Part shown: positions 27,765-59,134 of the stretch, in pieces
How positions within the stretch are numbered: position 1 is the first letter of the stretch
How the letters are laid out: every line of letters starts with the position of its first letter
From: a virus
IMG/VR virus record: IMGVR_UViG_3300030060_005339
Location: 1-59,134 of that record
Reading direction: 5' to 3' (one strand)
Length of the DNA: 59,134 nt
Notes under the pieces: generated by a model
What the model was told of the DNA's origin: nothing
Seen by the model: the letters and a program-made list of their open reading frames with translations, nothing else
Databases searched by the model: none
Translations under genes and position numbers: made by a program

Positions 27765-28087
27765 TGGCTAAACTGTTAGAAACAAAATTACCCATAGCCA
27801 TAGGAGACATATCTCCTGAAACTTTTAACAGGCTTGTAAGAGTCCTGGAGCTTTCTTTAAATAAAGTAGACATCGACTCTACTTTGTCTGTAAATGAAAC
27901 TCAACGTAACGCAAATAAATTTCAACAAGGCGATATTATTTGGAACTTGACTGCACAAGAACTGCAACTATGGAATGGTGAACAATGGATAAGTTTATAC
28001 GAGCGAAGAGAATTTGGCGTAGAGGCTGTAACTTCCTTGGGCAAAGTTACGGTATCTACGAACGGAGCGACCTCAATACAAATATAA
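27764..28087 (+). CDS. Conserved small tail-module protein, 107 aa
   Basis: GTG start overlapping the previous stop by one base. 'LPIAIGDISPETFNRLVRVLELSL' and 'FQQGDIIWNLTAQELQLWNGEQWISL' make a helix plus beta unit seen next to gp10-like genes in marine phages. Probably a tail-tip or needle accessory. Its end overlaps the lysozyme start (TAATG). Confidence 0.65.
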   Translation: MAKLLETKLPIAIGDISPETFNRLVRVLELSLNKVDIDSTLSVNETQRNANKFQQGDIIWNLTAQELQLWNGEQWISLYERREFGVEAVTSLGKVTVSTNGATSIQI

Positions 28088-28527
28088 TGGACAGAGAACA
28101 ATTATTAAAGGAACTTATGTTAGACGAAGGTGTTATTCATGAGATTTATAGGGATCATCTTGGATACCCTACTTTTGGTGTAGGGCATTTGATAACAGAA
28201 AAAGACAAAGAATGGGGCCTCAAGATGGGTACGCCTATATCAAAAGAAAGAGTTAAAGAATGTTTAGAGCAAGATGTAGAAATAGTTTGCTCGGAGCTAG
28301 ACAAGAATATGAAATGGTGGAGAGAGCTTAGCGATGCGAGACAACGTGTCATGGCTAATATGTGTTTTAATCTAGGTTATCCTAGACTTAGTAAATTTAA
28401 AAACTATCTTGCAGCTGTACAAGAACAAGATTGGGAAACAGCAGCCAAAGAAATGTTGGATAGTAAGTGGGCTAGACAAGTAGGAGATCGAGCAGTAAGA
28501 CTACAAACGATGATGTTAGATGGTTAA
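28087..28527 (+). CDS. T4-type lysozyme (endolysin), 146 aa
   Basis: I start at ATG 28087 (MDREQLLKELMLDEG), not at ATG 27985, whose extra residues lie over the previous gene. E14, D23 and T29 ('LDEG', 'YRDHLG', 'YPTFGVGH') have exactly the spacing of T4 lysozyme E11, D20 and T26. It cuts peptidoglycan between MurNAc and GlcNAc (GH24). 'NMCFNLGYPRLSKF' and 'SKWARQVGDRAVRL' complete the fold. No signal peptide, so it needs a holin; one is at 29732. Confidence 0.92.
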   Translation: MDREQLLKELMLDEGVIHEIYRDHLGYPTFGVGHLITEKDKEWGLKMGTPISKERVKECLEQDVEIVCSELDKNMKWWRELSDARQRVMANMCFNLGYPRLSKFKNYLAAVQEQDWETAAKEMLDSKWARQVGDRAVRLQTMMLDG

Positions 28528-29455: not shown

Positions 29456-29732
29456 ACCAATACGCAGAACCACTGGTAAAGGCGGTAACTACCGTCCTAC
29501 CAAGAAAGGTGCAGGCATGACTAAGAAAGGTGTAAGAGCCTATAGGAAAGCCAACCCTGGATCAAAGTTAAAAACTGCTGTAACAGGTAAAGTTAAAAAA
29601 GGTAGCAAGGCAGCTAAAAGACGTAAATCTTATTGCGCAAGATCATTAGGTCAATTAAAGAGAAGCTCTGCTAAAACTAGAAATAACCCTAATTCAAGAA
29701 TTAGGCAAGCGCGCAGAAGGTGGAAGTGTTAA
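29436..29732 (+). CDS. Basic protein, DUF6321-like, 98 aa
   Basis: GTG start. 'GGNYRPTKKGAGMTKKGVRA', then 'NPGSKLKTAVTGKVKKGSKA' and 'AKRRKSYCARSLGQL', is the DUF6321-type pattern of small basic proteins that travel with the previous family. The GTG start lies inside the previous gene, in a different frame. Function unknown, probably nucleic-acid binding. Confidence 0.7.
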   Translation: MARKKAKPIRRTTGKGGNYRPTKKGAGMTKKGVRAYRKANPGSKLKTAVTGKVKKGSKAAKRRKSYCARSLGQLKRSSAKTRNNPNSRIRQARRRWKC

Positions 29733-30211
29733 TGAAACTAGGTATATTAAAAAATCTTGTAGGAACAGTAGCACCAACCATAGGAACAGCACTAGGCGGT
29801 CCTATGGGTGGTATGGCTGCAAACATGATTTCAGAAGTATTAGGATGTGATCCTGAGCCAAAGAAAATACAAAAGGCCATGGAAACAGCTAGTCCTGAGC
29901 AACTGGCACAATTAAAGAAAGTAGAAGCTGACTTTGAAGTGCAAATGAAAAAACTGGACATAGACTTGTTTGCATTGGAAACAGCAGATGTACAAGACGC
30001 TAGAGGAAAGTTTAGCAAAGATTGGACAGCTAGAATTATAGGAATACTGGTTGTTGGTGGGTTTATGGGGTACATATTCCTAGTAACTTTACAGCCTCCA
30101 GAACAAAACTCAGAAGCATTGATAAACCTTGTATTAGGCTACCTTGGTGGCTTAGCAAGTGCTATTATATCTTTTTACTTTGGGGCATCGAACAAACAAG
30201 ACAACGAATAG
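29732..30211 (+). CDS. Holin of the 3TM (GTA-type) family, 159 aa
   Basis: I start at ATG 29732 (MKLGILKNLVGTVAP) in a TAATG overlap. It has an N-terminal hydrophobic helix, a charged middle (ETASPEQLAQLKKVEADFE, then 'ETADVQDARGKFSKDW') and two C-terminal membrane helices (IIGILVVGGFMGYIFLVTL; GYLGGLASAIISFYFG). This matches the holin_3TM pattern. It would release the lysozyme encoded at 28087. Confidence 0.8.
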   Translation: MKLGILKNLVGTVAPTIGTALGGPMGGMAANMISEVLGCDPEPKKIQKAMETASPEQLAQLKKVEADFEVQMKKLDIDLFALETADVQDARGKFSKDWTARIIGILVVGGFMGYIFLVTLQPPEQNSEALINLVLGYLGGLASAIISFYFGASNKQDNE

Positions 30212-33768: not shown

Positions 33769-36700
33769 ATGTCCGTTTCTCCAGAAGAATTAACAAAAGA
33801 AGAAGAAGAAAAACTACAAAATTTTTTTAAAAATAGTCTTAATTTATCCGAAGAAGAAGAAACTATTGAACAAACTTCTGTTGAAGAATCGGAACAAAGT
33901 AACTACCCTATTTTAGACGCATTAGAGCAAACGCCAGTAACGTATTCTCCAGCTGGACAAATAGCATTAGGAGCAGCTCGTCTTGGTAAACGTTTGTATG
34001 GAGGCTTTCAAGGCCTTGCAGGATCTTTTCAAAGAACTGGAGCAGTTACTGCAGAGAAGTTAGGGTTTCAAGAACAAGCAAAAAATTTACGTGAAGCATC
34101 AGACTTGAACCGAGAACAAGCAGCTGAGACTGTGTATAAAAATAAATATGGAGACACAGGGCTTGAACAATTTAAAAATCTGGAAGATGAAAATTGGTGG
34201 ATCGATACTATAGGTGCTGTGATACCAGGGTCTATTCCTTTTTTAACAGGAGCAGCAACTGGAGGGTATTCTACATTAAAAATGACAAGAAATCCTTATG
34301 CAGCGTTAGTGGGTGCTATGGGAGGCGGGGCATTAGCTGTATATGCTCAATCTTATGGAGACGCGTATGACGAGTATTTAGAAAAATTTCCTAATGATAT
34401 TGAAGGAGCTTCCGACTATGCTTTTAATGTTTCTGGACTATCTTCTCTTATAAATGCAGCAAGCATACCGCTTAGTTTTATTGGTCTTGGTACAGCTCCC
34501 TTAAAACATTATTTAATACAAGCCATGCTACAAGGAAGTATTGGAAGCACAGATACAACAACACAAAACTATCAAGCTAAAAGTTATGGTGTAGATCCAG
34601 ACAGAGATTTAAGTACAGGACTTGCACCTAGTTTTGTAGGAGAAGCAATAGCCGAAGCACCTATTTTAACAAGCACTGTGCGTAAAGCATCCGAAATAGT
34701 TGAAAGATCACCAGAAGAACAAGCTCAAGAAATTCAAGAACAAGCTGAGGCTGAAAGAGACAATATTGAAGATCAAGCAGAACGAGCAGTTAAATTTAGA
34801 TTAAAAAATATTGCTGAAAAATATGCTGAAAGAAAAGGTTTACCTTACGACAAAGACATAAAAGATCTAGAACGAAATGAACTGTTAGAAATAATAGAAG
34901 AAGAAAAATTAGAAATAAGAACTGTTCCTGAAGAATCATCTGAGTCTCTCTATAATAAAATAGTTGAAAGTATAGAAACTCAAGCTATGCAAGAACGAAT
35001 AAAACATCGTCAAAGAGGTTTAGTAGGTTCTAAACAAACGTTAGATGATTTAGAAAAAGAACAAAAAATGATTTTAGACGAAATGTCTCCTGAACAATTA
35101 GCAGATGAAATAGAAAAAGATTTTGGTTCTCCTGAGGTGTATAGAAGTTGGGCTTTGGACCAAGGAGCTTTAGCTTTTGATCCCGAAGAAAGTTCTTCAA
35201 ATTATGAACAAGACAAAGCTGCTTTAGCAAGAGCCAAAGCTACTGTTTTGTTTGATCGAAGAAGAAAACCTTTATGGGTTGTAGGAAGAGACAAAATTGA
35301 CACTTTAGTTGAAGAGTATAAAAACCAACATACGGTTGAAGAGTTAAGAGAAATGGTATATGAATTTTATACACCAGAAGAACTAACGCTTAGACAAGGA
35401 ACCGATACTCAACGAGCAGGAACGCAATTTGAAGACGCTCCTGCTTTAACTAAAGGAGAGCTTACTGCAGACGAAGCAGCTCTTTTACTAGCTGAACTAC
35501 AAGGAATTATTGATAATCAAAATGAAAAATTAAACTTAACTACGGGAACATCTTTTTTAGGCAAACGAAAAAGTTTTCTTAAAAGAGTGCAGTTCAGCCC
35601 CCAAGAACAAACAGAAAAAGAATTAATATTTAAAGAACATATAGCACCAAATGGAAATGCTTTAACAGCTAAAATTGAAGTGCCTGTTCCAGAAGGAAGT
35701 CAAGAAAAACCCATTGTTATATCTTTTAGACGAAGAGGATTAGATGTAGAAGGAACGTTAGCAGAACAAATGGCCTCTGGAGGAGCTAACTTAGTAGCCG
35801 TAAGAGCAGAAGGAGTTCCAGAAGAAGGTGTTATAGGAAAAACTATTCAAGAACTAAGAGATAGTTTTCCTGAATCCTACATAAAAGAATTTGAAATTCC
35901 TATTAATAGATCTCCTCACGTCAGACAAAACGGAACAGTAGATCGAATACTTGGCATGTATAACCGTATGGCTAGACCTTTAATGTCTACAGGAGCCATG
36001 GTCGGAGGTCGTTACAAACAACTACAAGGCAGACTAAAATCCATGGATCAATTTGCTCAATATATAGGATTAGAAGTGGAAAGAGCTATATTAAAAGCTA
36101 TAGATAAAGGAGAAGTAACTAACAAAGAGGAAGCCGATAAACTATTAATGGCGTTTCTTAGAAAGACAGGAGCTAGAGTTACGCTTACAGAAGAGGATAA
36201 AAGTAAATACAAAAAAGAAATTGAACGTTTAGAAAGAAGTAGATACGACAGCGACAACAGAGGCAACACAGCACGACAAAATCAAATAGAAGACGAAATA
36301 TCTCGTTTAGAAATAGCGCAAGAAGGCATTCAAGAAGAATCTGTTGTTCTTCAGCAATTACCAGAAAGCTTACGTAAAGTAGCTGCAGAAGTTCGCACAG
36401 GAATAGATTCATTGTCACAAAGATTATTAGACGAATTGCCTAGAGGGTTTTTAGACGCAGAACAAAGACAAGTTATTGAAGAAAATTTAAACAGATACGT
36501 CACTAGATCATTTGCTATTTTTGAACCTAAGTTAGGATTTAATCCAGCTTTTATGAAAAAATTTGGCACTTTTTTTGAAAATTCTAAGAAAGCACAAGAA
36601 CTTTATGAACGAGGTGTAGTAGCAATGGAAAGCGAACTTAAAGATAATCTTCCTGATTATGAAGCTCGTGTTATAAGAGAAAATAGAACTGCTACTCCAG

Positions 36701-39258
36701 AAGAAGTGCAACAAGAAGCAAGAAAAATTTTACGAGAAGAAGCAGAAGCAAAAGTAGATGAAATTATTAATACAGCTATGTATCAAAATGCGTATGATGT
36801 AATGCACTTAGCTGGTTTAAAAAAACCTCACAATGCAAAAACAGGGTTTTTAAAAGCAGAAGGATTATTATCAGAAAAAGGTTTTATTCCTTATGCAATT
36901 AGACAGTTGATGGGCGAAATAAATGAAGCTAATTTAGTAGCAGCTACGTCTTTTGCTAGAATTGCAAAATTAATTGAAACACAAAATTTTTATTCAGAGT
37001 TAATTAGAATAAATGATATGCCTGGAGAAATGTGGTTTTCTCCCCAACTCATACCAGGTAGTTATGAAGTAAAAATAGAAACAGAAGATTCTTTAAATCC
37101 TTTAAATGGTTACTACACGACTCAAGATATGTATGAAGCTGTGGTGGACAGATACAACCCAGCGGACCACCAAAACATAGTTTGGAATACATACGTTGCA
37201 TTGTTTGGAGGAGCACAAGCTTTAACTCAATATGGAATGATTGTTATAAGTCCAGGAACACAAATGAGAAACATTTATGGCGCAGCCATGATGTTATTAT
37301 TTAATGGCCACGTAGGAGCAGATTATAGTGAAGCTACCCGTGTAATTATGCAGGATATTTTTGGAAACAGTGAAGTTAAAGAAGGAGATCCCGAAGCTTT
37401 AGCTGCTAAACGTAAAATGGACGAGTTAGGTGTAACTACTACAGCTGCTCAACTTGGCGATACTCTTGGTGTATTAAGTCAAATTAGAGATGGAGGTATA
37501 AAAAGCGTAGGGCAATTTGTCGATATAATGTATGCTCTTAGAGAAACACCTGTTGGACAAGGTATTGACAAAACTCTTGGCGCAGCCAACAGACTAGCTA
37601 GAAAAACTTATGCAGCCACAGACGATTATTTTAAAATTCTTGCTTTTGGAAGCGAAAGATTAAAATTAAAAACACTTTTAAATAATCTACAAGATCAAAA
37701 TGGTAATGTTTTACCTGACGAAATAAAATTAAACATATTAAGAGAATTTGCTGAATCCATGACTTCTAAAAGCGACTTTGGAGGCATGGCGTACAGTCAA
37801 AATTTAAGAAATATTTTACGAAACGTAACTACTTTAGAAGATTACATAGACAATCTTGCAGCTTATTTAGTAAGAAATACAATGCCTAACTATGATTATG
37901 TAGGGCGATTTGCTGAGTATATAAGGCTTTTACCTTACGGTAATTTTATTGCGTTTCCTACAGAAATACTTAGAACGTCAGCTAACTCTGCTCTTTTTAC
38001 AAAACGTTTAGCAAGTTACAGAATATCTGATGAATTAATGCAGCAAGGAAACATAGCTAAAGAAACCATTTTGTTGTCTAGAAAAGAAGATCAAGCACTT
38101 TTTAAAGTAAATCCTAGACCATTTAAAAGTATGGCAATGAAAAGATTAATTGGAGGAGCGTTTGCTGGAGGGGGAGCAGTCGCATTAACGCAAACAATGG
38201 GTCAACTTTTATTTAATGTAGATGATGATGAACTAGACGCATTATCTGTTGTAGGAGCTGAGTATTCTAGAAACCAAAATATAATTCCAATGGGATCAAT
38301 TAGATCTAAAGAAGAAGGTGGAGGCACAGTTGGAACAAGTGCTGCATATATAGCTCCTTATGAAAGTTTACACGAACTTTTAAATGTAATTACCAGACAG
38401 TCTTTAAAGGGAGAATACACAGCTGACCCTGTAACACTGGATAATGCTGTAGTTACTTTTGCAATAGAGTTAGCATCTCCTTATACAGACAGATCAATTA
38501 GTCAAAGAGTTATAGACCAACTTAGGATTAATATGGATTTAGATACTTATAAGCCAGTATATCTTGAAGGAGACGACATGGGAGTTCGAGTTATAAAAAT
38601 GGTTAAATTTGCTTTAGATGAAACTCAACCAGGTCTAACACGACAGTTAAGCGATTTAATTTGGTCTTTAGAAGAAGGAGACGCAAGGTTTAACGAATAC
38701 GGTGAAGAAATGTCTGTTATGAGAGCGTTAGCAAAACTAATGGGATTGTCAACAACAAACGTAAACCCAGACAAAAGTTTTCCTTTTGTTCTTAATAACA
38801 GCATTGGAAGATTTAGAAGAGAAGTACCCACAAGTTTTAGGCGAGCGCGAGGCTCAGGAGAAGTTACAGAAGAGATGATTTTAGACATGTTTTATCAATC
38901 TAATTACTACTTTTTTAAAATTCAACAAGAGCTGTATTTTGTTTCTGAACAGTTTAAAAAAGTTAATCTTTCTGATGAACAATATAACAAACAAATGAAA
39001 AGATACGCAGATCAAGCTGGTGTGCCAAAACTTTTTCTCAGTAACATACAACAAGGTGTTTTTACACCTTACATGCCTACTCCAGGAATTGTAAAAAGTT
39101 TTTTTGAAGAAACTGAAAAGAATCAACTTAATCGAACTTGGCCGTTTGACGAAATTAATGATCGACACAAATTTATGATCGACAATAAAATTTCTTTAAC
39201 GGCTAATCCTGATCTGAATCGAGAACTTCGTCTGAATGCTCTAAAGAAGGAAGACTAA
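33769..39258 (+). CDS. Giant internal virion (ejection) protein, 1829 aa
   Basis: After TTAGGAGAAAATT. An acidic head, then hydrophobic glycine-rich segments at about residues 145-290 (IGAVIPGSIPFLTGAATGG; AMGGGALAVYAQSYGDAYDE) and long coiled coils (about 315-440). A helical core is visible as 'LFGGAQALTQYGMIVISPGT', and the C-terminus is positively charged. Giant helical proteins with membrane-active segments at the end of the structural operon are T7 gp16-like ejection proteins. I see no transglycosylase motif I can certify. Its last 56 bases overlap the convergent nuclease gene. Confidence 0.72.
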   Translation: MSVSPEELTKEEEEKLQNFFKNSLNLSEEEETIEQTSVEESEQSNYPILDALEQTPVTYSPAGQIALGAARLGKRLYGGFQGLAGSFQRTGAVTAEKLGFQEQAKNLREASDLNREQAAETVYKNKYGDTGLEQFKNLEDENWWIDTIGAVIPGSIPFLTGAATGGYSTLKMTRNPYAALVGAMGGGALAVYAQSYGDAYDEYLEKFPNDIEGASDYAFNVSGLSSLINAASIPLSFIGLGTAPLKHYLIQAMLQGSIGSTDTTTQNYQAKSYGVDPDRDLSTGLAPSFVGEAIAEAPILTSTVRKASEIVERSPEEQAQEIQEQAEAERDNIEDQAERAVKFRLKNIAEKYAERKGLPYDKDIKDLERNELLEIIEEEKLEIRTVPEESSESLYNKIVESIETQAMQERIKHRQRGLVGSKQTLDDLEKEQKMILDEMSPEQLADEIEKDFGSPEVYRSWALDQGALAFDPEESSSNYEQDKAALARAKATVLFDRRRKPLWVVGRDKIDTLVEEYKNQHTVEELREMVYEFYTPEELTLRQGTDTQRAGTQFEDAPALTKGELTADEAALLLAELQGIIDNQNEKLNLTTGTSFLGKRKSFLKRVQFSPQEQTEKELIFKEHIAPNGNALTAKIEVPVPEGSQEKPIVISFRRRGLDVEGTLAEQMASGGANLVAVRAEGVPEEGVIGKTIQELRDSFPESYIKEFEIPINRSPHVRQNGTVDRILGMYNRMARPLMSTGAMVGGRYKQLQGRLKSMDQFAQYIGLEVERAILKAIDKGEVTNKEEADKLLMAFLRKTGARVTLTEEDKSKYKKEIERLERSRYDSDNRGNTARQNQIEDEISRLEIAQEGIQEESVVLQQLPESLRKVAAEVRTGIDSLSQRLLDELPRGFLDAEQRQVIEENLNRYVTRSFAIFEPKLGFNPAFMKKFGTFFENSKKAQELYERGVVAMESELKDNLPDYEARVIRENRTATPEEVQQEARKILREEAEAKVDEIINTAMYQNAYDVMHLAGLKKPHNAKTGFLKAEGLLSEKGFIPYAIRQLMGEINEANLVAATSFARIAKLIETQNFYSELIRINDMPGEMWFSPQLIPGSYEVKIETEDSLNPLNGYYTTQDMYEAVVDRYNPADHQNIVWNTYVALFGGAQALTQYGMIVISPGTQMRNIYGAAMMLLFNGHVGADYSEATRVIMQDIFGNSEVKEGDPEALAAKRKMDELGVTTTAAQLGDTLGVLSQIRDGGIKSVGQFVDIMYALRETPVGQGIDKTLGAANRLARKTYAATDDYFKILAFGSERLKLKTLLNNLQDQNGNVLPDEIKLNILREFAESMTSKSDFGGMAYSQNLRNILRNVTTLEDYIDNLAAYLVRNTMPNYDYVGRFAEYIRLLPYGNFIAFPTEILRTSANSALFTKRLASYRISDELMQQGNIAKETILLSRKEDQALFKVNPRPFKSMAMKRLIGGAFAGGGAVALTQTMGQLLFNVDDDELDALSVVGAEYSRNQNIIPMGSIRSKEEGGGTVGTSAAYIAPYESLHELLNVITRQSLKGEYTADPVTLDNAVVTFAIELASPYTDRSISQRVIDQLRINMDLDTYKPVYLEGDDMGVRVIKMVKFALDETQPGLTRQLSDLIWSLEEGDARFNEYGEEMSVMRALAKLMGLSTTNVNPDKSFPFVLNNSIGRFRREVPTSFRRARGSGEVTEEMILDMFYQSNYYFFKIQQELYFVSEQFKKVNLSDEQYNKQMKRYADQAGVPKLFLSNIQQGVFTPYMPTPGIVKSFFEETEKNQLNRTWPFDEINDRHKFMIDNKISLTANPDLNRELRLNALKKED

Positions 39259-46704: not shown

Positions 46705-48153
46705 ATGGAACTTAACAATTACGAATTCAAGAGCGAGCCCTACCAGCATCAATTAGAAACTCTCCAAGAAAGTTACCATCGTAACCTATTTGCATTGTTT
46801 TTGGAAATGGGACTGGGTAAATCTAAAATTCTCCTGGACAACGCAGGTATTTTATTTGAAGAAGGTAAAATATCTGGACTGCTTATCGTGTCACCGAAAG
46901 GTAACCTACGAAACTGGGACATCAATGAAGTAAACAAACATCTGCCTGACCGTATAGAACGTAACGTATTAGTATGGCAACCAAACCACACACAGAAATG
47001 GTTGCATGACTTTAAGAAGATGGTCAACGAACCAAGCGACGGCACATTAAATATCTTTCTAGTTAATGTAGAAGCTTTTGCTACAGTCAAGGCATGTAAA
47101 TTTGTAGAAGAGTTTATGGTTACACACGATGTAATGATGGCTGTAGATGAATCTACCACGATCAAGAATCCAAAAGCCAAACGCACACAACATCTTATTA
47201 AGTTGGCACCACTAGCAGACTACAGAAGAATACTTACAGGCTTTCCAATAACTAAGGCCCCACTTGATCTGTACTCACAATGTTATTTCTTATCTCCTAA
47301 CCTGCTGGGATTCAGCAGTTTCTACGCTTTTCAAGCTAGGTACGCAATCACACAACGCAGACAAATGGGCAAACATGCTTTTCAACAGATAGTTGGATTT
47401 CAGAAACTAGAGGAGCTGCAACAATCGATCAAGGACTTTTCTATACGTAAGATAAAAGATGAGTGTTTAGACTTGCCTGAGAAAGTTTATGTAAGACGAC
47501 ACGTAGAACTAACTGACGAACAAAACAAAGCATACGGCACAATGAAACGTGAAGCACTTATGGTATTAGAAGATGAATTGTTTTCTACTATGAACGTACT
47601 GACTCAGCTGATGCGCTTACAACAAGTGGTGGCAGGTAGTTTACGTAACGAAGAAGGTGAAACAATTATATTAAAGAACAACAGAGTGCAGACGGTATTG
47701 GACTTATTAGAAGAAACATCTGGCAAAGTTGTGATCTTTGCAGTTTTTCAAACAGATATACAAGAACTAGAACGAGCCATCACTGAGAAGTTCGGTCAAG
47801 GTTCTGTTGCATCTTACTATGGCCATACACCGCAGGACGAACGACAAAACATTATTGAGAAGTTTCAGGATCCTGACAGTGAGTTAAGATACTTTGTGTC
47901 AAACCCACAGACAGGTGGCAGAGGTATTACGCTTACGGAAGCCAGCACAATGATATTTTATTCTAACTCCTACGACCTAGAACTTAGAGTACAAGCCGAA
48001 GATCGCATACATAGGATCGGACAGGAACGCAGTTGTACTTATATAGACCTAGTGTCACAAGGCACAGTTGATGAACAAATACTTAAAAATTTGTTGAGCA
48101 AGGTTAAGATCAGTAACGAAGTTCTTGGGGAGGTTCGCAGTTGGTTCCAATAA
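46705..48153 (+). CDS. SNF2-family DEAD-box-like helicase, 482 aa
   Basis: 'YQHQLETL', Walker A 'LEMGLGKSK' (33-41), motif II variant 'DEST' (148-151), 'ILTGFPI' and 'FSSFYAFQARYA', then the C-terminal lobe with 'KVVIFAVFQTDIQEL', 'TGGRGITLTEAST' and motif VI 'EDRIHRIGQERSC'. This is the minimal SNF2 translocase, common in phages, used on dsDNA in replication restart or to strip proteins. Head of the rightward block 46705-58099. Confidence 0.9.
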   Translation: MELNNYEFKSEPYQHQLETLQESYHRNLFALFLEMGLGKSKILLDNAGILFEEGKISGLLIVSPKGNLRNWDINEVNKHLPDRIERNVLVWQPNHTQKWLHDFKKMVNEPSDGTLNIFLVNVEAFATVKACKFVEEFMVTHDVMMAVDESTTIKNPKAKRTQHLIKLAPLADYRRILTGFPITKAPLDLYSQCYFLSPNLLGFSSFYAFQARYAITQRRQMGKHAFQQIVGFQKLEELQQSIKDFSIRKIKDECLDLPEKVYVRRHVELTDEQNKAYGTMKREALMVLEDELFSTMNVLTQLMRLQQVVAGSLRNEEGETIILKNNRVQTVLDLLEETSGKVVIFAVFQTDIQELERAITEKFGQGSVASYYGHTPQDERQNIIEKFQDPDSELRYFVSNPQTGGRGITLTEASTMIFYSNSYDLELRVQAEDRIHRIGQERSCTYIDLVSQGTVDEQILKNLLSKVKISNEVLGEVRSWFQ

Positions 48154-48174
48154 AGGCTATAATTTATAGTCTAT

Positions 48175-48525
48175 ATGGAAGAAGCAATAAAATTTATTAA
48201 TGAAGTAGGCTTTCCTATTGCTGCTGCACTAGGTTTAGGTTTCTTTATATGGAAACTTATCAATAGAATTATTGATGGTATGGAAACTAAGTTAGATGTC
48301 TTAGATGATAAAGTAGCTGATCAGATAGAACAAATGGAACTACGTCTCGGCACAAAACTAGACTCTCAACATGGTATCTTAGTGGCTCTTATAGATCGTG
48401 TAAGAAGTTTAGATAATGAGATAATTAGACAGGATACTCTTATAAAAACAATACTTGGTGTGCCACAACTGATAGATAGCAACAAGATTGCGAAAGCAGA
48501 TAGAGACGACCAGAGGAAAGATTGA
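48175..48525 (+). CDS. Membrane-anchored coiled-coil protein, 116 aa
   Basis: An N-terminal membrane helix (VGFPIAAALGLGFFIWKLI) is followed by a coiled coil (residues 35-95, METKLDVLDDKVADQIEQME). This resembles BhlA/UviB-like holin-type proteins. It ends in a one-base overlap with csgF and has a -10-like TATAAT at 48158-48163 but no clear -35. Could be a second holin, or an inner-membrane partner for the secretion genes that follow. Confidence 0.6.
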   Translation: MEEAIKFINEVGFPIAAALGLGFFIWKLINRIIDGMETKLDVLDDKVADQIEQMELRLGTKLDSQHGILVALIDRVRSLDNEIIRQDTLIKTILGVPQLIDSNKIAKADRDDQRKD

Positions 48526-48992
48526 TGGCTCCTAAACGCCCTGATGAAATATTACTCTTAGCTTCTATGATAATAGTAATGTTTGTTGGTTTAGCTGTGC
48601 AAGCAGATGAAATGACCCACAAGTTTAAAAATCCTAGCTTTTCAGGGATAGGCACTTCTAGTCATTATTTAACTATAGAAAATCAAGAGTTCAATAGAAA
48701 AGAAGCTATACGTGAAGAGATCAAAGCCTACGTAGAAGATTTAGAAAGAGAAGCTGAGAACACAACCTTAGCTAGATTCATACGTAACTTAGAGAGTAGA
48801 ATATACGCACAACTTTCAAGACAGCTAGTAGATAGTTTGTTTGGTGAAACTGCATCTGATTTTGGTGTTCTAGAATTAGAAGGCAATACTATAGAATATC
48901 GGGTAGAAGACGACAAAGTAACATTAATAATAACAGATGAAGAAGGCGATACAACAGAGATTACTGTACCTCTCGGTTCTTTTACTTTCTAG
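48525..48992 (+). CDS. csgF: Curli assembly protein CsgF, 155 aa
   Basis: ATG 48525 after AGAGGAAAG. A signal peptide (residues 1-27, cleaved after VQA) puts the key CsgF motif 'THKFKNPSFSGIG' at the mature N-terminus, where E. coli CsgF has 'FQFRNPNFGG' and plugs into the CsgG pore. 'FNRKEAIREEI' and the helix 'LARFIRNLESRIYAQLSRQL' follow, and the C-terminal strands 'NTIEYRVEDDKVTLIITDEE' complete the fold. CsgF couples secretion to nucleation outside the cell. The last 56 bases overlap csgG in another frame. Confidence 0.88.
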   Translation: MAPKRPDEILLLASMIIVMFVGLAVQADEMTHKFKNPSFSGIGTSSHYLTIENQEFNRKEAIREEIKAYVEDLEREAENTTLARFIRNLESRIYAQLSRQLVDSLFGETASDFGVLELEGNTIEYRVEDDKVTLIITDEEGDTTEITVPLGSFTF

Positions 48993-49749
48993 TTGTGCAT
49001 TACTTGTAGACCCCTTAAACAATGGTGTACCACCACTACGAGATGTTGAACCTGCAAAAGTAAATTCTCTTCTTGTTACAGCACTTAAAGAACTAGACCC
49101 CCCTGTTAAAAAACCTATTGTTGCAGTTTACTCAACAAGTTTTCAAGATGATACAGGCCAACGTAGATCCAACAGTCAATACGCTAGTTTCAGTACAGCC
49201 ATCACTTCTTCTCCTGATGCCTATTTAATCCGAGCTCTTAAACACTCTAATTTTTTTGACGTGGTAGAACGCAAAGGACTAGATCATCTTACAAAAGAAA
49301 GACAAATAATTCGTTCTGCTAGAGAAAAGTTTGATGAAAAACAACAACTTAAACCTTTGCTTTTTGCTGGGCTACTTATGGAAGGGGGAGTCATAGGGTA
49401 TGAAACAAACGTAAAGTCTGGTGGAGCTGGAGCTAGGTATCTTGGAATTGGAGCATCCAAAGAATACAGACAAGACAGTATTACTGTGTCATTGCGAACA
49501 ATCTCTGTTCTTACAGGTAAAGTTTTAATAGAAATTTTAGTTACCAAAAGTGTTTTGAGTGCTTCTGTATCACAAGACGTTTTTAAGTTCTATAGTAATA
49601 ACACTGAATTAGTTGAAATTGAGAGCGGTATAGTAGAAAATGAATCTGTAAATATAGCATTACAGACAGCTGTGGAAACAGCAGTCTTACAAACGATACT
49701 CGAAGGCTTAGAACTAGGGTATTGGGAGCAAAGAAGTGAGAATGAATAA
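48937..49749 (+). CDS. csgG: Curli secretion channel lipoprotein CsgG, 270 aa
   Basis: The signal peptide MKKAIQQRLLYLSVLLLSSC ends in a lipobox with Cys20 as lipid anchor. 'ALKHSNFFDVVERKGLDHLT', 'ERQIIRSAREKFDE', 'LMEGGVIGYETNVKSGGAGA' and 'RYLGIGASKEYRQDSITVSL' follow the E. coli protein closely, as does length (277 there). CsgG forms a nonameric outer-membrane channel for unfolded curli subunits. In the pore loop 'YASFSTA' aligns with 'ASNFSTA': the Phe is kept, Asn is Ser. It starts inside csgF and overlaps the curlin-like gene by eight bases. Confidence 0.93.
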   Translation: MKKAIQQRLLYLSVLLLSSCALLVDPLNNGVPPLRDVEPAKVNSLLVTALKELDPPVKKPIVAVYSTSFQDDTGQRRSNSQYASFSTAITSSPDAYLIRALKHSNFFDVVERKGLDHLTKERQIIRSAREKFDEKQQLKPLLFAGLLMEGGVIGYETNVKSGGAGARYLGIGASKEYRQDSITVSLRTISVLTGKVLIEILVTKSVLSASVSQDVFKFYSNNTELVEIESGIVENESVNIALQTAVETAVLQTILEGLELGYWEQRSENE

Positions 49750-50458
49750 ACTACTTATATCGTTGTTTTTAATAGCAACACCCCTCTATGCAGCCGACAA
49801 CGAAGTGTATATAGACCAATCTGGTGCTACGTCTAACTTAGACATAGAACAAGTTGGCGGTGGCGGTAATATTATCGGAGGTTCAGATGCTACAGCTGGT
49901 GCCTCTAATATGACTCCGTTAGATTTAGATGGCGCAACTATGACTTTGGACGTATTGCAAAAAGGATCTACTAACAAATTCCTTGGTGATATATGGGCAG
50001 ATAACTACACAGGTTACTTTTCATTTATAGGTGACAGTAATACATTTAATATGTCTACAGATGAAACAAACGCCACAGGAGCAGATGGTTCTAATGTAAA
50101 CGTACAGGTTACGGGTAACACAAACACCATGACACTTAATCACGGCATGACTGCACTAGCAGCTAATCTAGACTTAGATTGGATCGTACAGGGTGGAGGT
50201 AACAGTATTACAGCAGCCATAGATGTAGATGGAGCTACTAACTACATGGATATTGATGGTGATGATAATACAGTTACTTATGATGGTGACGGTTACGCAG
50301 GTGGCTACTTTTATCTAGATCATACAGGCAGCACAAGAACATTTAATATAGACCAGGAATCTACATCAGATAATGATTGGCTCAAGATTACCTCTGTTGG
50401 CTCTAATGGCACAGTCTGTGTTACTCAGTCAGACGCAGGAAATTCATTCGTCTGTTGA
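49742..50458 (+). CDS. Secreted curlin-like beta-repeat protein, 238 aa
   Basis: I start at ATG 49742 (MNKLLISLFLIATPLYAADN), a clear signal peptide cut near residue 18. The rest has about nine strand-turn units of the curlin type, hydrophobic-x-hydrophobic-x-Q-x-G-x-x-N: 'YIDQSGATSNLDIEQVGGGGN', seen as 'YIDQSGATSN' and 'LDIEQVGGGGN', then 'LDVLQKGSTNKF', 'VNVQVTGNTNTM' and 'FNIDQESTSD'. Rich in Asn, Asp, Gly and Thr, no Lys-rich patches. Expected substrate of CsgG. More diverged than CsgA, so amyloid formation is inference. Confidence 0.75.
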   Translation: MNKLLISLFLIATPLYAADNEVYIDQSGATSNLDIEQVGGGGNIIGGSDATAGASNMTPLDLDGATMTLDVLQKGSTNKFLGDIWADNYTGYFSFIGDSNTFNMSTDETNATGADGSNVNVQVTGNTNTMTLNHGMTALAANLDLDWIVQGGGNSITAAIDVDGATNYMDIDGDDNTVTYDGDGYAGGYFYLDHTGSTRTFNIDQESTSDNDWLKITSVGSNGTVCVTQSDAGNSFVC

Positions 50459-51488
50459 TATAGGTTCTATATCTGAACTTAGAGGTAACGCACAAGTTCT
50501 AAGAGACAAAGCGTACGGAGCTGAGTTGCAGTTCGACATACAACAAATGGATGATGTCCGCACAGAAGCGGGCAGAGTTGCTATAACATTTGAGGACAGC
50601 TCTACAGTCAAACTAACAGAGCACTCTAAGTTAGTTATAGACGAATACATTTATGACCCTGACCCGTCAAAATCTAAAATGGCCTTAAAGTTTGCCAGTG
50701 GCACAGCACGATTTATCACAGGTAAGTTTAATAACAAAAGTAACATATCTATTAAAACTCCTACGGCAGACATAGCAATACGTGGTACCGACTTTACTTG
50801 CACCGTAGACGAGTTAGGTAGGTCTCTTGTCATACTGTTACCAGACGAGAACGGTATATCCAGCGGAGAAATATTAGTAACAACCGCAGCGGGTAGCGTA
50901 ACCTTAAATAAACCATACCAGGCAACGACTGTATCTGTGTATGAAAACAGCCCTACGAAACCAGTTACATTAGATATATCGTTAGACTTGATAGATAACA
51001 TGCTTATTGTTAATCCGCCTGAACAAACGCAAGAAGATTTAGAGCAGACACGAACGCAAACTTCAGCCGACTATTTAGATTTTAACGACCTAGATATAGA
51101 TTTTTTAAATGAAGACTTTCTTGATGCAGAACAGAATCTAGAATTTACAGAGTTAGACATTAACTATTTAGACGTAAACTTCCTAGAAGACTTGCTCAAC
51201 GTACTAGACGCATTAGCAATATCTAAAGAAGAAGACCAATTAAAACAAGGCGGTGTAGGCATTCGTATAGTTGGTACAGAAATAGGACAAGATAAAGATA
51301 CACAAATAACAACGATCATTGCAGGGCAAAAAATTAGTTTAATCAGAGCAGTTAATCAAAGTGCTAGACTGGACTTAGATGGATCACAAAGCTATACGGT
51401 CATATTGATACAGGATGGTGTAACAAATACAGTTAAAGTTAACGGTGGGTCTTCTACAACGATTACAATAAAACAAGGAACAGAATGA
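50373..51488 (+). CDS. FecR-domain periplasmic protein, 371 aa
   Basis: ATG 50373 (MIGSRLPLLALMAQSVLLSQ) gives a short export signal; ATG 50406 is an alternative. Residues about 30-170 are a FecR domain: 'ISELRGNAQVLRDKA', 'DDVRTEAGRVAITFEDSSTV', 'IKTPTADIAIRGTDFTCTVD'. A middle part repeats 'LDIDFLNEDFLD' / 'LDINYLDVNFLED', then a beta-rich C-terminus. FecR proteins sense or relay periplasmic signals and often partner CHASE2 cyclases. Its first 86 bases lie inside the curlin-like gene, and it ends in an ATGA overlap with the cyclase. Confidence 0.83.
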   Translation: MIGSRLPLLALMAQSVLLSQTQEIHSSVDIGSISELRGNAQVLRDKAYGAELQFDIQQMDDVRTEAGRVAITFEDSSTVKLTEHSKLVIDEYIYDPDPSKSKMALKFASGTARFITGKFNNKSNISIKTPTADIAIRGTDFTCTVDELGRSLVILLPDENGISSGEILVTTAAGSVTLNKPYQATTVSVYENSPTKPVTLDISLDLIDNMLIVNPPEQTQEDLEQTRTQTSADYLDFNDLDIDFLNEDFLDAEQNLEFTELDINYLDVNFLEDLLNVLDALAISKEEDQLKQGGVGIRIVGTEIGQDKDTQITTIIAGQKISLIRAVNQSARLDLDGSQSYTVILIQDGVTNTVKVNGGSSTTITIKQGTE

Positions 51489-53227
51489 AAAAACTCCGAC
51501 TACCAGGTTTGATAGCTTTACTTGGACTACCTTTAGTCTTACAGCTTACTCCTTTAGAGATACTAAAGCTCAAGGTGTTTGATGCGTGGACGAAGGACCA
51601 AGAACCTTCTGGGTACTTTACGGTGCTGAACATTACCGAAGAGGATATTGCAAATGAAGGAGGATACCCTTTATCTAGGCAGACACTAGCACAAATTCAA
51701 ATTAACCTTTTACGTAAAGGGGCAACTGGAGTGGGATGGGTAATAGCTTTTCCACAGCCTGATAGATTTGGTGGCGACTTTGAGTTTGCAGAAGCTTTAT
51801 CTTTTTCTCCCAGTGTACTAGCCATGTTTGAAGGAGAAGGTGACTATCCTCCAACCACAGGGACAGTTATTTTGGGAGAAGACACGGGTGGCATTTTAGC
51901 TACGGGAGCTATACAAAACATTAAAGTGTTACAGAAAAGTGCAACACAGGGTCTAGCTGTAGCCAGGACAGATGTAGATAATTTAGTTCGCAGATTACCT
52001 TTGTTGATGCGCACACCTGATGGGTGGGTATCTGCATACGGTACAGAAGTATTGAAAGTTTTAGCGGGAGCAGACACTTACGTTATAAAGACGAATGATA
52101 ATGGTATAGAAGAAATCAGGGTAAAAGGGCTCCCACCAGTAAAAACAGACAGTTTAGGGCGCAAGTGGATAAGTTTCGTGAATACCCCGCAAACAAATTT
52201 AAAAGAAATGGATGTAGAAAATAAATTTGTTTTTGTGGGATTTACTGCAAAAGGTATTATGCCTCAACTCGCTACACCTGTAGGTCTGCTAGAACCACAT
52301 AAAATACAAGCAGCTTTAGCTGAATCTATACTTATACAAGATAGTCCTTACATACCAGATTACGCATTGGCTGTAGAAATGGCAGCCTTATTATTAGGCA
52401 TAGCTATGATGTGGTCACTGATTAATTTCTTGGGGATAACGTTGGGGATAAGTTTAGCTGTGTCTACCATGGCCTTAACTTTATTCGCAGGTTATAGCGT
52501 GGCACAACAAGGAGTATTGATAGATGTAACGTGGACTTTGATAGCAGAGTTTATAACGGCCACTGTAGCTTTCTACACACGATTCAGAGAACAGTACAAA
52601 CTACGACAACAAATCAAGAAACAGTTTGAACATTACCTCGATCCTAGACAGGTCAAGGCTTTACAAAAAGATCCTAGTTTACTGAAGTTGGGCGGAGAAC
52701 GAAGGAACTGTACGTTTTTGTTTACAGATGTACGTGGCTTCACTGCAATGAGTGAGCGCATGGATCCTGAGTTAGTGACTGTAATTATGAATGAAGCACT
52801 AACGATACAATCTGATACAGTTAAAAAATATGGTGGAATGATAGACAAGTATATTGGCGATGCGATGTTTGCCATATTTAATGCGCCCATAGATATGGTT
52901 AATCACGAAGAAGCTGCTGTGTTATGTGCACAAGAAATACAAAAACAGTTTAAAGAATCTTCTATTGGAGTTGAGATAGGCGTAGGAGTTAATACTGGCG
53001 AGGCAATTATTGGGAATATGGGAAGTGCAACACGGTTTGATTACACAGCTATTGGGGATGCAGTAAACCTTGCAGCCAGGCTAGAGTCAAGCACCAAAGA
53101 AGTAGGTAAAGACATAGTAATAGGAGAGTCTACAGCACAAGCATGTTCTTTCCCTTTAGCGGTGCTGCCTTCGATTACTGTTAAGGGTAAACAGGATAGA
53201 ATAAACATATTCACCTTGATGCCCTAA
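51485..53227 (+). CDS. CHASE2-domain class III adenylate cyclase, 580 aa
   Basis: One N-terminal membrane helix, a periplasmic CHASE2 sensor (about 30-285, 'FTVLNITEEDIANEGGYPLS'), three membrane helices (293-364) and a cytoplasmic class III cyclase. All catalytic residues are visible: metal Asp415 ('LFTDVRGFTA') and Asp459 ('DKYIGDAMFA'), purine-selecting Lys455 and Asp525, and transition-state Asn528 and Arg532 ('GDAVNLAARLE'). The Lys/Asp pair indicates ATP, so the product should be cAMP. Coupled by ATGA to the FecR gene. Confidence 0.92.
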   Translation: MKKLRLPGLIALLGLPLVLQLTPLEILKLKVFDAWTKDQEPSGYFTVLNITEEDIANEGGYPLSRQTLAQIQINLLRKGATGVGWVIAFPQPDRFGGDFEFAEALSFSPSVLAMFEGEGDYPPTTGTVILGEDTGGILATGAIQNIKVLQKSATQGLAVARTDVDNLVRRLPLLMRTPDGWVSAYGTEVLKVLAGADTYVIKTNDNGIEEIRVKGLPPVKTDSLGRKWISFVNTPQTNLKEMDVENKFVFVGFTAKGIMPQLATPVGLLEPHKIQAALAESILIQDSPYIPDYALAVEMAALLLGIAMMWSLINFLGITLGISLAVSTMALTLFAGYSVAQQGVLIDVTWTLIAEFITATVAFYTRFREQYKLRQQIKKQFEHYLDPRQVKALQKDPSLLKLGGERRNCTFLFTDVRGFTAMSERMDPELVTVIMNEALTIQSDTVKKYGGMIDKYIGDAMFAIFNAPIDMVNHEEAAVLCAQEIQKQFKESSIGVEIGVGVNTGEAIIGNMGSATRFDYTAIGDAVNLAARLESSTKEVGKDIVIGESTAQACSFPLAVLPSITVKGKQDRINIFTLMP

Positions 53228-53244
53228 TCATATAAACTAAGTTT

Positions 53245-56200
53245 ATGTCCATATTTTTTGGTAAAGACATTACAGCAGAGGATTTAGCTGCGGGTAGGTT
53301 ACAAGGTTCTGAAAAAGAAAAATCAGCTGTTAGTAAAGCTTTGCGATTTGGCTTAGACCAGCCAACAGAGAATGTTGCAACAACATTACGAGCACTAGGA
53401 TTTGACACACAAGCAGATACTTTAAGTGGCTTAATAGATGCCCCTGAAAATTATGACTCAAAAGCTGCTCAGTTTGTAGGAGAGGAGGGAATGTACGACT
53501 TTAGTGCTCTGCCTCTAGCCGTAGTAGAACAAGCGGGGCAGCTAGGCGGATCTTTATTATCTAGGAGTATTGGTGCAGGAGCAGGACTAGCAGTTGGTGG
53601 TCTTCCTGGAGCATTTATCGGCGGTTTACTTGGACCAGGGTTATTCGAAGCTGTGCAGATAGCAGGGCCAGTAGCCTTAGAAAGAGCTAGAAATGCTAAT
53701 CCTCCTAGAGAAGAGCCAGATATTTCTGATTGGGCAGCTGCTTTAGGCACTGCAACTTTTTCTGGAGTCTTAAATGCTATCGGTGCTAAAAACATTGGTA
53801 AATTAAACACTACATTAGTTGGTACAGGAGTGCGAGAAGGGAGCACAGAGTTCTTACAAGGACTCACCGAACAGTTTGGTAGCACAGCTGGTACAGACAA
53901 GGGACTAGAGTTAGATTTGAGACAAGCAGGTGGTGAAGGATTGATAGGTGGTTTTGCTGGAACATCTGCACAAATTCCTTCTTCTACATTAAACACAGCT
54001 CAATCATTGGAAGATCTTAGGCAAGACATAATCGGAGACAGCATAACAAATGCAATGTTTGACCAAACTACACCTGACCAGGCTGTAGAAGAAATGGGAG
54101 AGCAATTAATGTTAACGGAGCAAACTGTACAAAATATAGAGCAGTTTGAACAAGAAGCCGATCAATATGACCCTGATGACCCAGGAGCTTTTACTGATGA
54201 AGACATTATTCAAGAATTCTTAACAACTAACGATCAGTATTTAGAAAATTTAATTGAAACTGAATTTGGAAATCAATTAACTAGAGATCAACAATTTCAA
54301 TTGTTTGTAAATGTACAAGACTACATAAGAAATCATTTTGAATTTTTCGATCCTCGAACAACTGTTTCGCCACGAGAAGCATTAGCTCAAATGGCTCAAA
54401 CTGTTCAACAAGAATCGACAGCATTTTTAGACAGGGCCAACTTAGAACAAGTTGAATCAGGGACAGACCCGCGTTATGTTGGACCACAGTCTATGAATGT
54501 AAATCTTAACGCTAAGGAAGAATTATATAATCAAGGTGGAGCAGGCATAACGTCTATAGAATCAGGCATCGATCCTAATTTCTTAACGCAATCAATTTTA
54601 ATAGAAGATGGAATATTAGACCAACGTTTACCTAAGGATCCTAACAAACTTGTAAATCCTCAAGGGCTACTGCAAGAATTAGGCGTAAAAGAAACTGACA
54701 AAAATTGGTTCGAAACATCAAAAAGAGGTAGCAAAAAAGTTGTTAGTGAAGTTGTGAACACAGAGATAGCTCCTTTCTTAAAAGCTAAAAAAGACGCAGG
54801 AGAAAAAGTTACCCGTGCAGAAATAGAAAACATACTTTACGATTCTTTAAGTCGTCATAATTCTTTTTACCGAGAAGGTATGGAAACTGAGCATCGAGGC
54901 GGGCATACTTTTGCAGGCGAGGGACTAGGAGATTTATTCCCTGAAGTAGTCGACGTAGATAATTATTTTGAATTGTGGAATCATTATATTCCATTAATAC
55001 CTGGCAATTCTGCACTAGAAAATAGTCCTTATTTTAATCGTGATGGCAACGATAATTTGCATAATCCTCATGGAGATGGAGCAAACATGTGGACAAGAGG
55101 GTTTAAGGTAAGCCACCCACAAGGACTAGGAACAGGAAAATTAATTGCGGAAAATCAATCTAAACTTCACGGGCACTCACAAGACCCAAATAAAACTAGA
55201 GAAATGTATCTCTCTTCAGTAAACGTTGTTGAAGATACAACAGAAATAGACAATATTAGAAACAGAAGAGCAGATTATGACAGGGCTTACAATAATTTTG
55301 CGGAAGAGGTAGCTAATAAAAATACGACTGATGATACCTCGGTGTCACGAGCCATGGATACAGTTGCAACTTTGCTTTTAGAAGAGCCAAGCCAGTACGA
55401 CAATTACAGAGATGAAGCACTGTTAAATATAGATAAAGAGTTAAGTTCAATATCAAACGAATATGCAAACGAAGTAAAAAAACTAAGAACAAAACAAGCT
55501 AAAGAAAATAACGATGCTTTTGTAGATATAATTAATATAACGCAGCCTCTTGGCTCGATAGGTATATTGATAGATCAAGATAGTTTTCAAAACTTTATGG
55601 ACCAACCTGCACAAGCTTTAGATGTTTTTGAAAGTGCTGGAAGACAAAGAAGAAATAAATTTATTGAGTACGTCCTTGCTAACCACGGAGTCAATTTAAA
55701 TCTTGGAAGGATAGAAGATCCAGACACTTTTAGACCTATAGATCAAGAAATTTTAAATTTAGCCGATAGACCTAATTTAACAATAAACGAAAAACACGCT
55801 AAAGAAAAAGTAGAGTTGATATTGGACTATAGTCCTAAACTGGCTGATAAATACAACACGTTTAACAATTTAATAATAGCATCCGATAATTATCCTTCTA
55901 TGGCAGAGTCAAGACAGTTGGAAGAATTTGAAGGCAGAAGCAGAGAAGATAGAATACTGTACCCAGACTATCCGTTTAAAAACAATTACTCTGTAATGAA
56001 TTTAAGACGCGTGGTGACTAAGAGCATAAAAGACGGAGACGATTTTGTGTTTATAGGCAGCGGCGGAAAAGGAGGAGCTCCTGAGTCTGTGTATAAAGCT
56101 CAGAAAAAAGAAGCTGGAAACATTGCAGAAGTCATAGCCAGTTACCAAGATGCTTTGAAAGCGGAAGATTTATTTAAAGTGTTGCCAGATTCAGCAGACG

Positions 56201-56340
56201 TGCCAGGAGGCCCGTACTACGCATTGGACATAAGGCCGTTGAAACAGTTGATAGAAGCCAAAGTATTTAAAGGTTTCAAGGGCTATAAAGAAGGTGGTTT
56301 GGTTATGAACTATGGTGATTATGGAAGGAGTTATATTTAA
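53245..56340 (+). CDS. Giant protein with membrane-active segment, 1031 aa
   Basis: The N-terminal part (residues 90-250) has a glycine-rich hydrophobic stretch (GAGAGLAVGGLPGAFIGG) and 'GVREGSTEFLQGLTEQFGST', an order like that in the 1829-residue ejection protein. The middle is acidic and helical, with a conserved-looking part 'EHRGGHTFAGEGLGDLFPEV' and 'WNHYIPLIPGNS'. The C-terminus ends 'YKEGGLVMNYGDYGRSYI'. Probably a second ejection or virion protein, or an effector. Follows the cyclase by 17 bases and overlaps the nuclease gene by one base. Confidence 0.65.
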   Translation: MSIFFGKDITAEDLAAGRLQGSEKEKSAVSKALRFGLDQPTENVATTLRALGFDTQADTLSGLIDAPENYDSKAAQFVGEEGMYDFSALPLAVVEQAGQLGGSLLSRSIGAGAGLAVGGLPGAFIGGLLGPGLFEAVQIAGPVALERARNANPPREEPDISDWAAALGTATFSGVLNAIGAKNIGKLNTTLVGTGVREGSTEFLQGLTEQFGSTAGTDKGLELDLRQAGGEGLIGGFAGTSAQIPSSTLNTAQSLEDLRQDIIGDSITNAMFDQTTPDQAVEEMGEQLMLTEQTVQNIEQFEQEADQYDPDDPGAFTDEDIIQEFLTTNDQYLENLIETEFGNQLTRDQQFQLFVNVQDYIRNHFEFFDPRTTVSPREALAQMAQTVQQESTAFLDRANLEQVESGTDPRYVGPQSMNVNLNAKEELYNQGGAGITSIESGIDPNFLTQSILIEDGILDQRLPKDPNKLVNPQGLLQELGVKETDKNWFETSKRGSKKVVSEVVNTEIAPFLKAKKDAGEKVTRAEIENILYDSLSRHNSFYREGMETEHRGGHTFAGEGLGDLFPEVVDVDNYFELWNHYIPLIPGNSALENSPYFNRDGNDNLHNPHGDGANMWTRGFKVSHPQGLGTGKLIAENQSKLHGHSQDPNKTREMYLSSVNVVEDTTEIDNIRNRRADYDRAYNNFAEEVANKNTTDDTSVSRAMDTVATLLLEEPSQYDNYRDEALLNIDKELSSISNEYANEVKKLRTKQAKENNDAFVDIINITQPLGSIGILIDQDSFQNFMDQPAQALDVFESAGRQRRNKFIEYVLANHGVNLNLGRIEDPDTFRPIDQEILNLADRPNLTINEKHAKEKVELILDYSPKLADKYNTFNNLIIASDNYPSMAESRQLEEFEGRSREDRILYPDYPFKNNYSVMNLRRVVTKSIKDGDDFVFIGSGGKGGAPESVYKAQKKEAGNIAEVIASYQDALKAEDLFKVLPDSADVPGGPYYALDIRPLKQLIEAKVFKGFKGYKEGGLVMNYGDYGRSYI

Positions 56341-58657: not shown

Positions 58658-59134
58658 ATGCCAAAAGGAACATCAGGAAACATATCAGGTAAGAACGACA
58701 AGCATCTAACACCTAAACAAATGCTTTTCGCTAAGGAATACGTGTACAACGACGGATCTAAAACACAAACAGAGTGCGCGCTTGCTGCTGGCTATGCTGA
58801 TACATCTGCAGCCGTCAGGGCTTCGGAACTTTTGAATCCACAGAAGTACCCGCTTGTGGTTAGATACATACAAGGTCTCCAGGCAGAGCTGGACAAGAAG
58901 TACGAGGTTACTTTTAGTCGTCATGTCAGAGAGTTAGCCAAGATTAGAGATCAAGCCATAGACAAAGGCAATCTTACTGCGGCAGTATCTGCTGAGGTGC
59001 AACGAGGTAGAGCGGCAGGTTTATATGTAGAACGTAAAGAAGTTAGAACAGGTACGTTAGACTCCTTGAGTGAAGTAGAGATAAAAGAAAGAATAGAGAA
59101 GCTACTTGGAGACTATAAACCCCTGCTTGAAGCA
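58658..59134 (+). CDS. terS: Terminase small subunit, N-terminal part (continues at 1-174)
   Basis: ATG 58658 (MPKGTSGNISGKNDKHLTPK) follows a poor ribosome-binding site. 'LTPKQMLFAKEYVYNDGSKT' and 'QTECALAAGYADTSAAVRAS' form the helix-turn-helix region of the terminase_2 small-subunit family, which binds the pac site. 'ELLNPQKYPLVVRYIQGLQA' follows. The frame runs off the end exactly at a codon border and continues at base 1. The last 50 codons duplicate the first 50 of the window. Confidence 0.85.
   Translation, partial: MPKGTSGNISGKNDKHLTPKQMLFAKEYVYNDGSKTQTECALAAGYADTSAAVRASELLNPQKYPLVVRYIQGLQAELDKKYEVTFSRHVRELAKIRDQAIDKGNLTAAVSAEVQRGRAAGLYVERKEVRTGTLDSLSEVEIKERIEKLLGDYKPLLEA
58985..59134 (+). 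repeat. Terminal redundancy: 150 bp repeated from 1-150
   Basis: Aligned without gaps to 1-150 with 143 of 150 identities. The seven differences cluster in codons GAT/GAC, TCT/TCC, AAG/AAA, CCT/CCC, TTG/CTG, CTC/CTT and GAG/GAA, and none changes an amino acid. Shows the contig closes on itself. Confidence 0.95.

Follow-up and report, generated by a model that had tools for sequence, protein, structure and literature searches.

Why would a phage genome carry the genes of a bacterial fibre exporter? Phages normally do not build surface fibre exporters for their hosts. The window analysed here, the 59,134-base IMG/VR virus record IMGVR_UViG_3300030060_005339, contains on its plus strand, at 48175-53227, a run of six genes in the order TMCC (a small membrane and coiled-coil protein), csgF, csgG, curlin, fecR, and CHASE2-cyclase. 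This is probably a phage-borne type VIII (curli-type) secretion module, by which the infected cell would export a curlin fibre while a FecR-domain protein and a CHASE2-adenylate cyclase would report that export via cyclic AMP (cAMP). If it works, infected marine cells would acquire a trait absent from their species, and this would affect superinfection, aggregation, and recombination among the most abundant bacteria of the ocean.

The initial annotation had named five of these genes, and all five are present at the positions given, four confirmed by Pfam and the curlin-like one by a family profile; it had left unnamed a sixth, TMCC, at the 5' end (48175-48525). Its description of an overlapping run also holds. 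Overlaps in the window are 56 nt for csgF/csgG, 14 nt for csgG/curlin, 86 nt for curlin/fecR, and 4 nt for fecR/cyclase, and median spacings in the first 80-odd phage loci were -56, -32, -86, and -4, the last being exactly -4 in 41/41 loci.

The first two of the named genes are predicted to encode an outer-membrane export pair. CsgF (48525-48992) appears to be secreted and matches Pfam PF10614 (E 8.3e-18) and PHROG 35372 (3.1e-43); it starts at an ATG (48525) that shares bases with the TMCC stop codon TGA, or alternatively at a TTG (48522). CsgG (48937-49749), the putative outer-membrane export lipoprotein, matches Pfam PF03783 (E 1.7e-49), and its residues 7-267 match the solved CsgG structures 3x2r and 6l7a (E 9e-47). 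On inspection of the sequences, CsgG has a signal peptide and a lipobox (LLSSC), and signal-like N-termini are found in CsgF, curlin, and FecR. The type VIII exporter identity first proposed is thus supported by Pfam and solved-structure matches for CsgG and by Pfam for CsgF. Two other CsgG records may be mentioned. A jumbo-phage CsgG has a C-terminal bacterial SH3 domain (L257:9001-10128, Pfam 2.8e-10), and a 1.5-kb record named 'Salmonella phage S.Kent 1-2-1' (OR851715.1, L084) has a bacterial-type csgG and is probably host DNA contamination.

The expected export substrate is the predicted curlin-repeat protein, a putative fibre subunit encoded at 49736-50458 (start GTG 49736 or ATG 49742; mature part modelled from 49793). 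As a single sequence it falls below the Pfam cut-off (Curlin_rpt, E 0.15). A profile built from 40 of its relatives matches the curlin amyloid 8c50 (E 1.5e-6) and CsgA 8enq (E 0.019), and members from large phages pass Pfam Curlin_rpt with E values from 4e-6 to 4e-7. The window protein has eight GxxN motifs, against 2.95 in shuffles (P 0.003). Its AlphaFold2 (AF2) model is an all-beta repeat protein (pLDDT 85.5, pTM 0.84), which had no significant match among PDB folds but did match viral BFVD models named 'Curlin associated' (E 3.7e-6). Diversifying selection on the fibre was considered and not seen, few module proteins of podophages being more conserved than curlin (mean identity 0.86, at a CsgG identity of 0.81). 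Directly after the second curlin gene of one large-phage locus (L206:11577-11924) is another outer-membrane-modifying gene, with a PHROG match to PagP-like lipid A acylation proteins (E 5.7e-12).

The FecR-domain protein (50373-51488; Pfam PF04773, E 3.7e-13) is best described as a predicted secreted, periplasmic-type signalling domain. In the AF2 model a signal-like N-terminus is followed by the FecR domain (residues 60-152), an acidic, disordered linker in which DxDFL-like motifs recur, and, at the C-terminus, a beta domain. Foldseek places the FecR domain with the PupR/anti-sigma signalling domains 4m0h and 6ovk (E 1.6e-4 to 4.5e-4), and there is a weak resemblance to the surface-anchoring domain of the ice-binding adhesin 5ix9 (sequence E 0.019). 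Pfam finds the FecR domain alone, with the signal-like segment directly before it, and neither an anti-sigma domain nor an inner-membrane segment; because the anti-sigma part is missing, the label 'iron regulator' is unjustified. The tail of the protein (51348-51485) may resemble the last curlin repeat. A profile of its last 45 residues aligns end to end with the curlin profile in hhalign (E 0.0022, 13% HH probability; control profile E 0.53), and the ending hxhxQ is found in 139/146 distinct FecR proteins and ~10% of other open reading frames (ORFs). This is suggestive only, and is offered as a lead. In large phages an extra secreted protein of 635-664 residues, with no Pfam or PHROG match, lies between fecR and the cyclase gene (L206:11987-13894, L257:11899-13893).

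The last gene (51485-53227) is predicted to encode an adenylate cyclase with a CHASE2 sensor, its active site intact. CHASE2 occupies residues 13-304 (Pfam 8e-25) and the class III cyclase domain residues 407-577 (Guanylate_cyc, 3e-17), with matches to CyaC and CyaB structures at E ~1e-31 to 1e-25. The catalytic set is complete: metal-binding Asp D415 and D459, adenine-specifying K455 and D525, and transition-state N528 and R532. Over 160 homologues, the metal Asp and the Lys are invariant in all those aligned. The N528 column has Ser in 53/140 phage cyclases (the Melnitz-like motif GDSVSTAARIE) and Asn in the window.

The scan of viral contigs recommended with the initial annotation found gene order and overlaps conserved across phage loci. 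IMG/VR scans with three CsgG queries gave 236 further loci. On contigs long enough for testing, CsgG in phages was accompanied by CsgF in 219/219 loci, curlin in 189/189, FecR in 146/146, and the cyclase in 66/68, counts that include near-duplicate contigs and so do not represent independent events.

The combination is not new, as the initial annotation had supposed it might be. Wittmers et al. (2022; PMC9599517) have already published the complete set, FecR and adenylate cyclase included, from pelagimyophages and from the phage group to which the window belongs. They report histidine kinase (HK)-CsgF-CsgG-CsgA/B-FecR-[CsgA/B]-adenylate cyclase (AC) in nine HTVC023P-type genomes and myophages, note its transcription in Pacific metatranscriptomes, and propose superinfection defence, 'sibling capture', and import. 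A partial set (csgF/csgG) was described in pelagimyophages (PMC7029224, 2020), and a CsgGF pore in phage Melnitz was published with a lysis hypothesis (PMC9004378, 2022); between them these two papers propose aggregation or lysis. HTVC008M and Melnitz also carry the module, Melnitz being annotated with two curlin genes. The observation is confirmed, and the window module is a new member of a kind already published. What is added here is the near-invariance of the gene set in phages, its occurrence in jumbo phages, a bacterial operon, a dedicated non-kinase TMCC, and a reinterpreted FecR.

Compared with the type VIII secretion system (T8SS) module of HTVC023P-type podophages and pelagimyophages such as HTVC008M (PMC9599517), the window, from the same phage group, has the same order (one or two small upstream genes, csgF, csgG, curlin, fecR, sometimes a second curlin, cyclase), except that the upstream gene here has no histidine-kinase domain. 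The E. coli curli system (csgBAC/csgDEFG) shares CsgG and CsgF homologues and a curlin-repeat substrate; the window module adds FecR and the CHASE2-cyclase, its curlin repeats are divergent, and no CsgD, CsgE, or CsgC was seen in it (for CsgC and CsgE, in a Pfam scan of the module genes). In a biofilm-regulating operon of Burkholderia contaminans a FecR-domain secreted protein adjoins a CHASE2 receptor (PMC5192318), although there the receptor output is a histidine kinase and there are no curli genes.

TMCC is a 116-residue protein with one N-terminal transmembrane segment (GFPI motif) followed by a coiled coil containing 'LIDRhRhLDNDhIRL'. Members of its family are ~75-120 residues long with the same layout, and usually occur as a pair in myophages and jumbo phages; two copies were found in 11/11 other phage records searched whole, the pair in large phages being sometimes displaced or inverted but still near the module. 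HTVC008M and Melnitz have related genes ahead of csgF. All of 16 diverse members match phrog_18771 (unknown function), and none has a HisKA or HATPase match in Pfam, which together with the length of 116 residues rejects a histidine kinase. Judged by its place before csgF and by its copy number (one, sometimes two), TMCC is probably the 'histidine kinase' of PMC9599517. A search seeded with TMCC found a module gene within 10 kb in all 51 loci longer than 20 kb, and TMCC is absent from both bacterial operons considered below (L088 and L089); for these reasons it is taken, from gene content, to be a phage-specific part dedicated to the module. The same 51/51 loci led to rejection of a general holin as the main role of TMCC.

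How might these parts act together? In the proposed scheme the infected host would build the CsgG/CsgF pore, and curlin would be exported through it onto the surface of the infected cell. The FecR protein, with its tail like a curlin end, would sense or nucleate curlin in the periplasm and act via CHASE2 to make cAMP a readout of the export state; TMCC would be an inner-membrane accessory. The adjacency of FecR and CHASE2 in the Burkholderia biofilm operon would fit such a coupling. The likeliest benefit would be remodelling of the infected-cell surface, either blocking competing phages or tethering neighbouring hosts, and the data favour neither. A more specific version is tentative, a possibility well short of an even chance: a self-reporting secretion device in which the curlin-ended FecR senses or nucleates exported curlin and sets the cyclase, with TMCC a new, phage-only inner-membrane part of the T8SS, and the whole a surface-remodelling system shared by podophages, pelagimyophages, and jumbo phages.

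Several points weigh against fibre export with cAMP reporting. No clumping was seen in Melnitz-infected cultures (PMC9004378). The periplasmic gate CsgE was not found among the module genes. Fibre formation is a prediction, and we infer both the link from FecR to CHASE2 and the curlin likeness of the FecR tail, the latter at the low HH probability given above. Six podovirus modules (L017, L025, L030, L055, L056, L058) are missing the cyclase; cAMP is therefore not essential everywhere.

The initial annotation had offered three uses for such a module: gated holes in the outer membrane late in infection, an exported fibre coating the cell, or rewired host signalling. Because every testable locus has a curlin gene and the phage has a lysozyme of its own, fibre export is a better reading than late membrane holes. 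Of the other readings, the one that survives best, though we think it unlikely, is that the chief effect of the module is to rewire host physiology through cAMP, with the exporter and curlin serving as sensor input. The intact cyclase active site, its retention in nearly all testable loci, and the FecR-CHASE2 adjacency in the biofilm-control operon (PMC5192318) would all fit, but the cyclase has been lost from several podovirus modules that keep everything else, and no cAMP effector was identified.

Somewhat less probable still is lysis control, proposed for Melnitz by the authors of PMC9004378, in which the CsgG/CsgF pore, with TMCC holin-like, would depolarise the envelope and time lysis. 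Of 16 TMCC members compared with the holin PHROG phrog_4898, the best reaches E 0.0008, a weak similarity, and in up to 28 of ~80 podovirus loci holin-like and/or lysozyme genes lie downstream of the module. The window, however, encodes a phage lysozyme of its own at 27985-28527 (Pfam E 8e-13) and has a separate holin-like gene with two transmembrane segments (29732-30211; phrog_1544, no assigned function), both ~18-20 kb from the module, which in 22 window-like loci instead follows a replication helicase. CsgG sits in the outer membrane, and so cannot alone depolarise the inner one. The invariable company of curlin, and the two curlin genes annotated in Melnitz itself, are contrary to the 'no csgA/B' premise of that model. 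Nutrient import through an open CsgG pore admitting large cofactors or siderophores, with FecR as an iron-linked regulator (PMC7029224; PMC9599517), would suit the missing CsgE gate but is the least credible of the three, given an invariant curlin substrate, a FecR protein with a signal-peptide-like N-terminus and neither the anti-sigma domain nor the inner-membrane segment of iron regulators, and a module in which neither a TonB receptor nor a sigma gene was seen.

A curli-type module in a virus record could also be an assembly artefact. The initial annotation had judged the genome to be otherwise phage, and the module is indeed continuous with phage replication genes. A chimeric join of host and phage DNA was rejected, near-identical IMG/VR contigs (L001-L006, 97-99% CsgG identity) existing independently. 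The two ends of the window have ~150 near-identical bases in common, so the genome is close to complete; several mismatches between the terminal repeats (1-150 and 58985-59134) suggest that the end copies come from slightly different copies or reads. The terminase and DNA polymerase are nearest to those of 023Pt_psg01, DSL-LC04, HTVC027P, and HTVC023P (50-63% identity). By these sequence comparisons the window is assigned as an almost complete genome of an HTVC023P-type podovirus, in the SAR11-phage group, and its host is presumably SAR11. The plus strand encodes the structural genes; replication genes occupy the minus strand at ~39.2-46.6 kb and are followed by a plus-strand helicase gene from 46705. 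The module begins 21 bases after the helicase gene and its 3' end (53227) lies 17 bases before a 1031-residue ORF (53245-56340), one of two very long ORFs with no PHROG match, the other being at 33769-39258 (1829 residues). There is no Rfam match anywhere in the window, and riboswitch control as reported for the Melnitz transfer-messenger RNA (tmRNA) is not supported. A promoter and terminator scan was uninformative, with 34 promoter-like sites against 32.5 in shuffles, despite a 10/12 site at 48134-48163.

The range of phages with the module is wider than published. Previous reports cover pelagiphages and an OM43 phage and, for csgGF, viruses from sediment (PMC9636769). In each of six jumbo records of 278-344 kb (G003, G005-G009) the module is accompanied by a T4-type Gp23 capsid gene (E ~1e-98), and five of the six have a terminase match; a search of the open-access literature found no report of curli genes in jumbo or huge phages. 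Such a range, extending to jumbo phages with T4-like capsids, points to a strategy of phages in general, not a peculiarity of pelagiphages.

Versions of the module also occur in bacteria. In Hyphomonas sp. TMED17 (L088, 9387-15410) csgF, csgG, curlin, fecR, and the CHASE2/cyclase gene follow one another on a 705-kb contig, flanked by bacterial genes, with the order, overlaps, and domain content of the window but no TMCC. A gammaproteobacterial genome (L089) has curlin-csgF-csgG-curlin-curlin-fecR, without the cyclase. Both are metagenome-assembled genomes, with the loci on long contigs with bacterial flanks. PMC9599517 states that FecR and the cyclase lie outside bacterial T8SS operons; this is contradicted fully by the Hyphomonas operon and, for FecR, by the gammaproteobacterial one. 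No third match near the score of these two was found in searches for more bacterial operons with this FecR (105 genomes family-wide; 385 and 369 class-wide), in which the neighbourhoods of weak matches were not read. The bacterial operon and the dedicated TMCC gene are concrete handles on mechanism.

In a concatenated tree the FecR-bearing modules stand apart from other bacterial csg systems (support 100/98). Next to the podophage clade the two bacterial modules sit on long branches, and the approximately unbiased test does not reject the grouping of all phage modules in one clade (p-AU 0.22); for both reasons the phylogeny gives no direction of transfer. In the CsgG tree the podophage clade is likewise beside the two bacterial long branches, and not nested inside the myophage clade as published. 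A number of GTDB contigs assigned to Maricaulis, Pelagibacter, Rhodobacteraceae, Flavobacteriaceae, and Pirellulales (L085-L087, L091-L093, L123, L145) seem to be of phage origin and to have been binned with bacterial genomes.

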